64,000 nt of DNA, from positions 3,038,001 to 3,102,000 of the forward strand of contig NZ_CP015961.1 of assembly GCF_001659785.1 (NCBI RefSeq). Reading direction: 5' to 3'. This document shows, piece by piece, positions 7,274 to 15,409 of the stretch. Both the position numbers and the translations under genes were made by a program. Source of the DNA: Dietzia timorensis (GTDB lineage Bacteria > Actinomycetota > Actinomycetes > Mycobacteriales > Mycobacteriaceae). Position 1 is the stretch's first letter; each line of letters opens with the position of its first letter. The notes beneath the pieces were generated by a model that was given only the letters and a program-made list of their open reading frames with translations, searched no databases and had not been told where the DNA came from.

Positions 7274-11430
<4,157 letters not shown>

Positions 11431-11476
11431 GCGGAGTTCCGGGCGTGGCTCCGGGCGAGGCTCGTAGGCTGGGGGA

Positions 11477-12928
11477 ATGAGCACCCCGACGTCACCGAAA
11501 TACGAGCTCGGCACGCAGTTCGCCGAGGCGTTGCCCGAGATGGCCGTCCAGACGGCCGCCGAGGTGCCGGCGAAGGCCCAGCTGGTCGCACTCAGCGATT
11601 CGCTTGCCGCCGAGCTCGACCTTGACGCCGAATGGCTGCGCACCGACGACGGCGTCGCATTTCTCGCCGGTCAGGACACCGACGCCGGCACGTTCGTCGC
11701 GCAGGCCTACTCGGGCCACCAGTTCGGCACCTTCAACCCGAATCTCGGCGACGGGCGCGCGCTGCTGCTCGGCGAACTCCGCGACCGCGAGGGGCGCCTG
11801 CGCGACATCGCGCTCAAGGGCTCCGGCCGCACCCGGTTCTCGCGGATGGGCGATGGCCGCGCGGTCCTCGGGCCGATGCTGCGCGAGTACCTCATCAGCG
11901 AGGCGATGGCCGCGCTCGGCGTGCCGACCACCCGCTCGCTCGCCGTCATCGCCACCGGCCACGGCGTGCGCCGCGAAACCCTCCAGCCCGGCGCGATCCT
12001 TACGCGCGTCGCCGCGAGCCATCTGCGCGTCGGCTCGTTCCAGTACGCGCGCATCGCCGGCGAGGACGAGCTGCTGCGCCGCCTCGCCGACCACGCCATC
12101 GCGCGGCACCACCCCGCAGCAGCGCATGCGGAGAACCCGTACCTCGCGCTGCTCGACGCGGTGATCTCCGCGCAGGCTTCGCTCGTTGCGCAGTGGATGA
12201 ACGTCGGCTTCATCCACGGCGTGATGAACACCGACAATATGACCATTTCCGGCGAGACAATCGACTACGGCCCGTGCGCCTTCATGGACCGCTTCGACCC
12301 GGCGACCGTGTTCAGCTCGATCGACGCCCAGCGCCGCTACGCCTATGGCAACCAGCCGCAGATCGCCCACTGGAATCTCGTCCGCTTCGCCGAGACGCTG
12401 CTGCCGCTGCTCGCGGATTCCCCCGAGCGCGGCGTCGAGCTCGCGGAGGCCTCGCTGCGCCGCTTCCCCGATCTCTACACCGACGCGTGGCGCGCCGGGA
12501 TGGCCGCCAAGCTCGGCCTCGCCCCCGACGACGTCCCACCCGAGCTCCTCGGAGACCTCATGGATCTCATGACGTCGCACGCGCTCGATTTCACCAGCTT
12601 CTTCCGCGCCCTCGCGCGCGTATCCGGCGACGACCGGACGCCGGTGGTCTCCCTCGTGTCCGAACCCGAGGCCCTCGGCGCGTGGCTGGATCGCTGGCTG
12701 GCCCTCGGCCCGGACCGCGAACTCATGGACCGGACGAACCCGGTCTACATCCCGCGCAATCACCTCGTCGAGGAAGCGCTCGACGCCGCAACGGGCGGGG
12801 ACCTAGAGCCCTTCGGCACGCTCTTGGACGCCGTGACCTCGCCGTTCCAGCCCCGACCCGGCCTCGAGCGCTACGCGCAGCCCGCGCCCGAGGACTTCGG
12901 TCCATACACCACGTACTGCGGAACCTAG
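11477..12928 (+). CDS. selO: protein adenylyltransferase SelO (YdiU family)
   Basis: SelO is a pseudokinase that binds ATP in a flipped orientation and transfers AMP to Ser, Thr or Tyr of target proteins, with links to redox stress. The 483-residue protein has family motifs [57 protein letters not shown] and IDYGPCAF, and ends in YTTYCGT, carrying the conserved C-terminal cysteine that is selenocysteine in animals. It starts 46 bases after pknG. Its last 100 or so coding bases are duplicated about 1.15 kb downstream across a toxin-antitoxin insertion. In M. tuberculosis pknG lies directly beside ackA, so selO is extra here. Confidence 0.93.
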
Positions 12929-12945
12929 CGCGCTCGGCCGCTGGC
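12827..12945 (+). repeat. 119-bp direct repeat, left copy (selO 3' end)
   Basis: This segment covers the last 34 codons or so of selO plus 17 bases beyond the stop. It matches 13982-14100 over 119 bases with about eight differences, nearly all at third codon positions. The sequence diverges completely on either side of the matched stretch. Confidence 0.9.
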
Positions 12946-12967
12946 AAAGAGTAAGGCCTTTTCACCT

Positions 12968-12985
12968 TGTACTACGTGTAGTACA
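12968..12985 (+). promoter_or_regulatory. probable operator of the toxin-antitoxin operon
   Basis: A perfect inverted repeat with eight-base arms, TGTACTAC and GTAGTACA, separated by GT, ends ten bases before the antitoxin ATG. Antitoxins of this type usually repress their own operon by binding such palindromes. Confidence 0.6.
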
Positions 12986-12994
12986 TTTCATGAC

Positions 12995-13288
12995 ATGAGT
13001 ACCCGCCGCTTCACCCGATCTCGACATATTCGCCGATCTGTTGTCGGCATGCGCGAGATCAACCACAACGGCGGGGCGATCCTACGCAAGGTAGGGAAAG
13101 ATTTTGACGAGGTGGAGGTCACGGAACGGGGACGAGTTCGGTGGAAGATCGTTTCCGCTGAGCCTCGTACACCCGTGTCCGCAGCCGAGGCGATGTCTAT
13201 ATTCGACGTCCCTACCGACTCTCATTGGGAAGCTGAATTGAGTGCGGACCGCGAGGAGGTCGTGGCTCGCGACCCGTGGGGCGAATGA
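12995..13288 (+). CDS. antitoxin, Phd/YefM or VapB type
   Basis: A 97-residue protein with a basic N-terminus and the segment REINHNGGAILRKVGKDFDEVEVTERGR, cut here into REINHNGGAILRKV and VEVTERGRVRWKIV, resembling the N-terminal DNA-binding fold of Phd/YefM-type antitoxins. The C-terminal half (from PVSAAEAMSIFDVP) would be the flexible toxin-binding part. The ATG at 12995 is chosen because a palindrome lies just upstream; an ATG at 13049 would give 79 residues and is a real alternative. No clear ribosome binding site precedes either, so translation may be leaderless. The toxin gene overlaps its stop by ATGA, a typical coupling of antitoxin and toxin. Confidence 0.75.
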   Translation: MSTRRFTRSRHIRRSVVGMREINHNGGAILRKVGKDFDEVEVTERGRVRWKIVSAEPRTPVSAAEAMSIFDVPTDSHWEAELSADREEVVARDPWGE

Positions 13289-13716
13289 GTGAGTCCCCTC
13301 GAGCTCTGCTCGACACGAACATTCTCATCGCGCAATTCTCTCCGGAGTCACCTCGACCTGATCTCACGAAATTCGACGATCTGTACGTGAGTTCATTGAG
13401 CTATTCCGAACTTCGGTTCGGGCTTTCCGTGGCTCTCCAACGCTCGCCCAAGGAGTACATCCTTCGTAGGAACCGCTTGGAAAGCGTTGAACACGTCTTC
13501 GGTTCGGGCCTTCCATTCGACGACTCGGCAGCCGAGGCATACAGCGAAATCATGGACTTTCTCGCCACACGAACGCCGCACAAGCAGTCCCTTAAGGCCC
13601 ACGTGTTAGATCGGATGATCGCCGCTACCGCATTGGCCCATAACCTCGTGCTAGTCACTCGAAATGTGGGCGATTTCCGGGCGCTCGAAGGTCTCCTTGA
13701 CGTCATTGAATGCTGA
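13285..13716 (+). CDS. PIN-domain toxin, VapC-like ribonuclease
   Basis: The 143-residue product is a PIN-domain nuclease, presumably a metal-dependent RNase that blocks translation when free of antitoxin. The four acidic positions are visible: Asp10 in LLDTNILI, Glu42 in SYSELRFG, Asp109 in HVLDRMIAATAL, and Asp130 in RNVGDF. Length and spacing fit VapC. The ATG overlaps the antitoxin stop as ATGA, which decides the start over the GTG nine bases upstream. The pair lies inside the repeat-bounded island after selO. The RNA target cannot be predicted from sequence. Confidence 0.85.
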   Translation: MSESPRALLDTNILIAQFSPESPRPDLTKFDDLYVSSLSYSELRFGLSVALQRSPKEYILRRNRLESVEHVFGSGLPFDDSAAEAYSEIMDFLATRTPHKQSLKAHVLDRMIAATALAHNLVLVTRNVGDFRALEGLLDVIEC

Positions 13717-13830
13717 CGTACTGGAGACCAAAAGGAGGATCCGAGGGGATTCGCGCGGACTGCCAACTTTCGTCCGTCCCTCATTGTCACTCAGTAGCAA
13801 TTCGCACTGCGGCCGAACGAAGTAATTACC

Positions 13831-13981
13831 TCAGGCGCGAATGCAACGCGGAGACGCCATACCCACTGAGCTCGGCGAGAACACCCAGACGCCCGGCCAT
13901 AGCCGTGGCCACCGCCAATGTCGTTCCCCGCACCGCAGGCGCATCGGCGGGGCCTGCACGAAAATCACTGGCGAAGGCCTC
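13831..13981 (-). pseudogene. possible C-terminal gene remnant, unidentified
   Basis: Read on the minus strand, this stretch gives about 50 residues with a normal protein composition, including [20 protein letters not shown] and ending SALHSRLR before a TGA at 13833-13831. No start codon belongs to it; the open frame runs straight into the antisense of the right selO repeat, so a gene body would have been lost at the repeat boundary. I do not recognise the family. The evidence is only composition and the open frame, so this is a tentative call. Confidence 0.25.
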
Positions 13982-14100
13982 GACGCCGTGACCTCGCCGT
14001 TCCAGCCCCGACCCGGCCTCGAGCGCTACGCGCAGCCGGCACCAGCCGACTTCGGCCCGTACACGACGTACTGCGGAACCTAGCGCGCTCGGCCGCTGGC
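13982..14100 (+). repeat. 119-bp direct repeat, right copy (selO 3' end)
   Basis: This second copy of the selO end encodes [20 protein letters not shown] and then [13 protein letters not shown] with a stop, followed by the same 17 bases as after selO. Compared with the left copy, six codons differ silently and one changes Glu to Ala, so it looks like a selO end that evolved under protein-level selection before being separated from its gene. Confidence 0.9.
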
Positions 14101-14131
14101 GCTCCGCGGCGACACCGGGACGCCCCGCAAC

Positions 14132-14201
14132 CTAGAAACCGTCGAGAGTGTCGATTTCGCGTGTGCACAGGACGGTTTCTAGGCTTTTGGACGGTTTCTA
14201 G
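14132..14201 (+). repeat. palindromic intergenic repeat
   Basis: The element begins with CTAGAAACCGTCGAGAGTG and contains two closing arms, GGACGGTTTCTAG ending at 14182 and again at 14201. Twelve bases of the first arm pair perfectly with either. It is the same family as the copies at 4428-4628 and again sits before a convergent gene end. Confidence 0.6.
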
Positions 14202-14227
14202 CCGTCGACCGCCAAGCGTGGAGCCTG

Positions 14228-15409
14228 CTACCCCTCGCCGGCGACCTCGTCGGCGAACCGCGCGATTGCGAGCTCCTCGTTCGTGGGCACCACCAGCGCG
14301 GACACCGCCGACCCCTCGCCGGAAATCACTCGCGCGCCCTTGCCCGACTCGTTCGCAGCCGCATCCACCGCTACGCCCCAGCTCTCGAACCCCGCCAGCA
14401 CATCCGCGCGCAGGCGCGGCGCATTCTCCCCGATCCCCGCGGTAAACGTGATCGCGTCGACCCGCCCGAGCACGGCCCAGTACGCGCCCACGTACTTGCG
14501 CAAACGGTGCACCGTGACGTCGTACGCCAGCTGCGCGTCGGCGTCCCCGGCATCGGCCCGCTCGAGCACCTCGCGGAAGTCCGACACACCGGCGAGCCCC
14601 TTGAGCCCCGAGGCGCGGTTGAGCCCCTCGGACAGCTCCTTCGGCGAGACGCCGCGCTCGTCCATGAGGTGGATCAACGCGCCCGGGTCCACATCGCCCG
14701 GCCGCGTGCCCATCACGAGGCCCTCGAGCGGGGTGAGCCCCATCGAGGTCTCGACCGCGACGCCGCCGCGCACCGCGGAGGCCGAGGCCCCGTTGCCCAG
14801 GTGCAGCACGATCTGGTTGACGTCGGCGTACTCGCGCCCGAGAACCCCTGCAGCCTGTTCGGAGACGTAGGCGTGCGAGGTGCCGTGGAAGCCGTAGCGC
14901 CTGATCCCCCACTCCTTCGGCACCGCGTAGGTGTAGGCCGAGGCGGGAAGGGTGGAAAAGAACCCGGTGTCGAACACCGCAACGTGCGGCAGGTCCGGGA
15001 ACATCTCGCGCGCCACGCGTATGCCGCGCAGGTTCGCCGGATTGTGCAGCGGTGCCAGCTCGGCGAGACGCTCGATCTCCGATTCGACCGCGGAGTCGAC
15101 GAGCGTCGGTTGGGTGAACTTGGACCCGCCGTGCACGACTCGGTGTCCGACGATCGCCACGCCCACGTCCTTCGGGTGCACGCCCAGTTCCGCGACGAGC
15201 TCCAGCACGACCTCCAGTGCCTCGCCGTGATTGGCGAGGTCGACCTGGCGTTCGCGGCGTTCGCCGTCATCCCCCGCCTGGACGTGGACGACGGAACCGC
15301 TGTCGCCGATCCGTTCGGACAGCGAGGAAGCGATGGTGTCCCCGGCGGTGTCGACGATCTGCATTTTGAGGCTGGACGAGCCGGAGTTGATCACAAGGAC
15401 CCGGGTCAT
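14228..15409 (-). CDS. ackA: acetate kinase
   Basis: AckA interconverts acetate plus ATP with acetyl phosphate plus ADP. The 393-residue product has the two family signatures: N-terminal VLVINSGSSSLKMQIVD and IVGHRVVHGGSKF, followed by FDTGFFSTLP, YGFHGTSHAYV, VLHLGNGASASAV and GGIGENA-type FTAGIGENAPRLRAD near the end. The ATG at 15409 starts right at the conserved N-terminus; the longer upstream frame overlaps pta. The gene begins four bases past the pta stop, so the two form an operon that moves carbon between acetyl-CoA and acetate. Confidence 0.96.
   Translation of the reverse strand: MTRVLVINSGSSSLKMQIVDTAGDTIASSLSERIGDSGSVVHVQAGDDGERRERQVDLANHGEALEVVLELVAELGVHPKDVGVAIVGHRVVHGGSKFTQPTLVDSAVESEIERLAELAPLHNPANLRGIRVAREMFPDLPHVAVFDTGFFSTLPASAYTYAVPKEWGIRRYGFHGTSHAYVSEQAAGVLGREYADVNQIVLHLGNGASASAVRGGVAVETSMGLTPLEGLVMGTRPGDVDPGALIHLMDERGVSPKELSEGLNRASGLKGLAGVSDFREVLERADAGDADAQLAYDVTVHRLRKYVGAYWAVLGRVDAITFTAGIGENAPRLRADVLAGFESWGVAVDAAANESGKGARVISGEGSAVSALVVPTNEELAIARFADEVAGEG

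Follow-up and report, generated by a model that had tools for sequence, protein, structure and literature searches.

A complete gene upstream of foreign DNA and a displaced 3′ fragment of the same gene downstream of it make up the picture drawn for e14 in icd of Escherichia coli K-12, and the Islander rule describes it for tRNA-gene islands in the part of PMC4383910 on which we draw. For e14, an excerpt of the report (PMC6379469) gives 163 bp for the displaced icd end and names one conservative Asp/Glu replacement. A different route to mixed junctions is homology-facilitated illegitimate recombination (HFIR), characterized in the cited portion of PMC6382021 by one homologous and one non-homologous joint. 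As far as titles and the opening lines of abstracts disclose, a literature search for VapBC insertions accompanied by gene-fragment repeats brought up no such case.

A selO 3′ End Repeated beyond a Toxin–Antitoxin Pair

The window, by which we mean the whole 64,000-nucleotide stretch of Dietzia timorensis DNA that was analysed, encodes on its plus strand a complete protein adenylyltransferase SelO of 483 aa (11477–12928 in the ORF list; Pfam SelO, E 1.3e-110). Repeat comparison revealed that the terminal 34 codons of this gene, stop included, and the next 17 bp (proximal copy, 12827–12945, plus strand) recur as 34 codons, again with the stop, and 17 bp of selO end without selO upstream of them (distal copy, 13982–14100, plus strand). 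The copies form a direct repeat of 119 bp at a spacing of 1155, with 111/119 positions identical (93%), and because a protein search of the genome itself yielded selO matches at these two places only, with one complete selO, chance does not account for the repeat. The locus shows one trait of the e14/icd type, a restored target gene (selO is complete) and a displaced end at the far border (13982–14100). The first-pass annotation had described this repeat, an intact selO, and an antitoxin/PIN-toxin pair in the 1,036 bp separating the copies; this anatomy holds.

The 1,036-bp insert has a GC content of 57.5%, against 67.4% for the window, and GC3 in the toxin and antitoxin genes is ∼64%, against 89–91% for pknG, selO, and ackA. 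Both frames are open and free of internal stops. The first (12995–13288, plus strand) encodes a Phd/YefM-like antitoxin of 97 aa, an assignment that draws on its position before the PIN toxin and on two matches below their cut-offs, to Pfam PhdYeFM_antitox (PF02604; E 0.0017, 18.6 bits against 29.8) and to NCBIfam TIGR01552 (E 0.002, 17.5 bits against 20.8). The second (13285–13716, plus strand) encodes a VapC-type toxin of 143 aa, which scores as a PIN-domain protein in Pfam (PF01850; E 4.5e-12, 47.1 bits against a cut-off of 23.6) and matches the NCBIfam VapC model at E 7.3e-12, under its cut-off. Several of the 15 plasmid homologues listed for the toxin are annotated VapC, and 2 of these 15, on M. 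lentiflavum and M. avium plasmids, are paired with a prevent-host-death antitoxin; in the order search, the relative with the highest score shares 42% identity with it. From composition and domain content, the pair appears to be a type II module of the Phd/VapC type in low-GC, foreign-looking DNA. Just 5′ of the antitoxin gene lies an imperfect 18-bp palindrome (12968–12985, assigned to neither strand; TGTACTAC-GT-GTAGTACA, inspected through its reverse complement), the probable autoregulation operator of the pair. The module may still be expressed and could make the locus more stable through addiction.

Folding of RNA from the flanks 3′ of selO and from the region that follows the toxin gene showed no unusual structure. 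Separately, the intergenic sequence at 14130–14205, at a distance of 30 bp from the distal selO copy, folds into a hairpin that has a perfect stem of 13 bp and, in addition, a third arm (z −3.5 in RNA folding). In the window, the 10-base arm of the hairpin is present 3 times (0.16 expected), similar copies of 66–80 bp lie at three other places in the genome, and the hairpin looks like a dispersed intergenic repeat. Elsewhere in the window, the filtered ORF list holds no ORF of at least 90 aa with high GC3 between 57000 and 63700, where GC dips to 55% at 62–63 kb; this is possibly another foreign stretch.

A Second Gene Truncated at the Right-Hand Joint

The final 153 bp of the insert (13829–13981) encode, on the minus strand, the last 51 residues of a protein of the mycothiol-dependent maleylpyruvate isomerase (MDMPI) family, a feature that the first-pass annotation had overlooked. 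With its stop codon, this 3′ fragment of 51 codons spans 13826–13981 and is truncated at the second selO end; its assignment comes from Pfam MDMPI_C, at an E of 9.3e-4 that is below the curated cut-off, and from matches within the genus. Its GC content of 67% matches that of the host. A genus search at a threshold of E 1 gave some match in 19/23 genomes. In 6 of the 22 other genus genomes (G021, G009, G019, G013, G003, and G005) the matches reach E 2.3e-6 to 1.6e-4 at 43–56% identity; they begin at query residue 3–7 and stop 0 to 6 residues before the matching frames end. These frames are longer, and the similarity covers their C-terminal ends; the three that were scanned match MDMPI_N above its cut-off and MDMPI_C below. 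Since the resemblance extends to within a few codons of 13981/13982, one joint truncates two genes. Elsewhere in the genome the MDMPI end finds no good match, the next standing at E 0.74 in a search whose 51-aa query would miss distant family members, and a plasmid search with the same piece gave two weak matches (E 0.6 and 0.7).

Double truncation at a single joint points to a non-homologous joint or the end of a deletion rather than to an attachment site. It bears directly on the possibility that the locus is a decayed site-specific island at the selO 3′ end, of the kind seen with e14 in icd and in tRNA genes. The element would have supplied a replacement selO end, the displaced original end would mark its far border, and the integrase would have been deleted or have acted in trans. 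Such an island would explain the complete gene upstream and the displaced 3′ fragment downstream that typify e14/icd and the Islander rule; its cargo is low in GC, and an identical stretch of 56 or 35 bp in the repeat could be the crossover core. However, such an element would have to terminate with an MDMPI gene cut short, and the recognised content of the 1,036 bp consists of the pair and the MDMPI end only. No recombinase was found in the insert or in a scan of 10 neighbouring ORFs, of which two lack a family match. The earlier statement that no integrase is present is thereby extended to these neighbours, and the idea of a tidy element with attachment-like ends is not supported, given the joint that also cuts the MDMPI gene.

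No stand-alone selO end was returned by an exact pattern scan of viral contigs or by a phage search, one of each kind. Two viral pattern matches (L213 and L214) were dismissed as chance, with no selO among their listed ORFs, and a record labelled as phage (MT835602, a label that is unverified) matches selO residues 10–483 at 52% identity, which is almost the entire protein, and is probably bacterial DNA. A plasmid search with the locus returned two records, both matching through selO. An integrase-type island is less well supported than the recombination scar proposed below, and we consider it unlikely.

Differences between the Two selO Ends

The eight differences between the copies fall at repeat positions 57, 60, 63, 65, 66, 75, 78, and 84, seven of them at third codon positions. 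Seven codons are affected, six silently and one by a Glu-to-Ala replacement (GAG/GCC). Because the differences are structured by codon in this way, the two ends are probably two selO alleles rather than one decayed copy, and the first-pass view that nearly silent differences mark both copies as having evolved as coding ends stands with that degree of confidence. Under a rough model in which the distal copy decayed freely and selO changed silently only, at least six silent differences among eight have P ∼0.05. All eight lie within 28 bp (P ∼1e-4 under uniform placement, 200,000 draws), flanked by perfect identity over 56 and 35 bp, and the 17 noncoding bp 3′ of the stop are the same in both copies. 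Such clustering also allows for a later gene-conversion patch, and the mosaic of differences packed into a short patch amid identity fits recombination.

Identical copies carrying one imported patch could also be the product of an in-genome event. A tandem duplication of the selO end and the pair would have been followed by a deletion and then by a short gene-conversion patch from another selO. The confinement of the differences to 28 bp amid perfect identity, noncoding 17 bp included, is what this sequence of events would leave, and the genome has one complete selO. By itself, though, duplication brings neither the MDMPI fragment nor the low-GC pair to a place beside selO, and three events are needed, so that we regard this route as rather unlikely.

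Second selO Ends and Variable Neighbourhoods in Related Genomes

Relatives without the toxin genes but with two selO ends had been named beforehand, in the first-pass annotation, as evidence that would speak against its reading. None came to light at 80 named loci or 20 genus loci, each of which has one end within the DNA examined (up to ∼1.5 kb past the match for genus loci; up to 5 kb, in some cases less, for named loci). A protein search of the order with the last 46 selO residues (E 0.001) matched 164/397 genomes, four of which have two matches: the window genome, G170, G311, and G210. The corresponding search of the family, in a sample that overlaps the first, matched 208/401 genomes, three of them twice (the window genome, G311, and G170). 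As a control, selO residues 78–123 also matched 164/397 genomes, the only ones matched twice being G311 and G210, where the second places were taken as paralogues. Lone C-terminal fragments are therefore seen in two genomes and lone inner-segment fragments in none, these numbers being small. The rarity of second ends (4/164 selO-bearing genomes of the order and 3/208 in the overlapping family search) counts against a site-specific island, as do the paralogous nature of the copies in G311 and G210 and the position of the G170 end upstream of its selO.

G311, with two ends 13.9 kb apart, was rejected as a lone-end case because the second end belongs to a second, decayed selO (568/741 aligned columns identical), and G210 because its two matches belong to long frames (593 and 472 aa) that lie on separate contigs. 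On contig 171 of G311 (L221) the two selO genes share a strand, the second being decayed with small indels and showing 77% identity in the compared stretch.

The other lone end is in G170. It comprises 98 bp, 85/98 columns of which are identical to the end of the complete selO in that genome. A PIN toxin gene precedes it by ∼70 bp, and the complete selO starts 3.7 kb and ends 5.1 kb further on. G480 and G248 lack the toxin and end (∼940 bp in all), their flanks meeting at the equivalent site, at which G476 has other sequence. In G491 and G431, and partially in G248, homologues of the G170 toxin precede a complete selO by ∼20 bp; the match in G491 is in two pieces, and that gene may be broken. 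The neighbourhood of toxin and selO can be followed in L253, L257, and L254 (G491, G431, and G248) alongside L222:1427-2120 (G170). Toxin followed by selO is therefore a natural neighbourhood in that clade, and the lone end of G170 appears to be what is left of a truncated selO. The toxin of the window differs from that of G170, whose genome has three matches to it, the two listed lying on other contigs.

Each of the two lone ends measures ∼100 bp and has a PIN toxin gene before it on the same strand, which raises the idea that the selO end serves a function within the module, pairs with homology to the selO 3′ end being inserted beside selO by host recombination and free of any integrase. The ∼940-bp piece of G170 behaves as an insertion where its flanks meet in G480 and G248, and the inner-segment control, with second matches only in the two paralogue genomes among 164, gave no sign of lone inner fragments. 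Against it, there are two cases only, with different toxins; in the window the MDMPI fragment separates toxin from selO end, and in G170 the piece lies 3.7 kb before the start of selO and not at selO. Truncation explains the G170 case, since two relatives have a homologue of its toxin directly 5′ of a complete selO and a third has a partial one, and the window type of PIN gene occurs in just 1/80 named selO neighbourhoods. We judge such a mechanism very improbable. The wider claim, that the conserved selO 3′ end serves PIN pairs as a homology arm by which they insert beside selO, and rarely at other places, with the window and G170 as two independent cases, strikes us as at least as improbable. 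The PIN toxin gene before both lone selO ends is a coincidence of n = 2.

In a selO tree the window protein falls outside the 20 genus rows and has a long branch (0.76); placement is unsure for so long a row, and the tree was set aside as proof of transfer. pknG and ackA share a contig in 16/22 other genus genomes, and they lie within 160 bp of each other in 10 of these 16, ∼1.7 kb apart in 5, and 4.4 kb apart in 1 (G015). Examination of the six longer intervals for frames of at least 150 aa against the window (E 1e-8, >35% identity) gave no such frame among the matches listed, and hence no selO, so that in none of the 16 genomes with a visible interval does selO lie between pknG and ackA, a position known only from the window genome. 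The intervals of G020 and G016 hold a minus-strand ORF of 513–517 aa. The pknG–ackA interval (11430–14228) is a variable site in the genus, occupied here by selO and the putative toxin–antitoxin scar.

A Recombination Scar as the Proposed Origin

The reading to which we lean, by a modest degree, is that the locus is a recombination scar that fixed a small toxin–antitoxin module. The HFIR anchor model forms the background to this proposal. We infer a donor from a related lineage, whose incoming DNA would have had the order selO, Phd/VapC-type pair, and convergent MDMPI-family gene. On the left, joining would have proceeded through homology in selO, leaving the gene whole and giving it the incoming end; on the right, non-homologous joining would have cut both the MDMPI gene and the resident selO, so that their remnants of 51 and 34 codons, respectively, came to lie back to back. 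This may have happened in one step, by HFIR, or through a duplicated selO region that was later shortened by deletion, and the data fit either route alike. The left joint, putatively homologous, lies in sequence identical between the copies, and the right joint truncates MDMPI and selO. HFIR, with one homologous anchor and one non-homologous joint, is consistent with both ends, as is an insertion that was later shortened by deletion. G170 lends some support in that truncated selO ends can evidently arise by rearrangement of a toxin–selO neighbourhood.

Several points count against a scar. The proposed donor order of selO, toxin–antitoxin pair, and MDMPI gene was found in no genome among the 95 selO-region loci searched; in one of the 95, that of M. 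intermedium (L082), an MDMPI-family gene follows selO, in tandem rather than convergently. The MDMPI_C score is below the curated cut-off, the same 17 bp follow both stop codons, which divergent alleles need not show, and a patch of 28 bp is very short for ordinary allelic exchange.

The locus carries a practical lesson. A displaced gene end with silent differences is the usual mark of a site-specific island, and it can also sit where a second gene is truncated; before an island is inferred from marks of this kind, one should look for another truncated gene. The locus also presents a toxin–antitoxin pair fixed beside a conserved gene with no mobility genes in view.

Comparison with Known Systems

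With e14 in icd and the tRNA-gene islands recognised by Islander, the locus shares a complete target gene and a displaced 3′ end beyond foreign DNA (PMC6379469 and PMC4383910, in the portions cited). It differs in that neither integrase nor phage genes were found, that a second gene is cut at the far border, that its size is 1 kb as opposed to 15.2 kb, and that recurrent selO islands were not found. Type II VapBC and Phd/VapC modules resemble the pair in their small antitoxin gene before the PIN toxin gene, their overlapping ORFs, and the palindrome upstream, whereas the antitoxin here matches below curated cut-offs and the best-scoring toxin relative of the order search is 42% identical. For HFIR, the portion of PMC6382021 cited names S. 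pneumoniae, A. baylyi, and P. stutzeri, all transformable; in D. timorensis it is putative, and a homologous anchor coupled to a non-homologous joint would explain both the complete selO on the left and the double truncation on the right.
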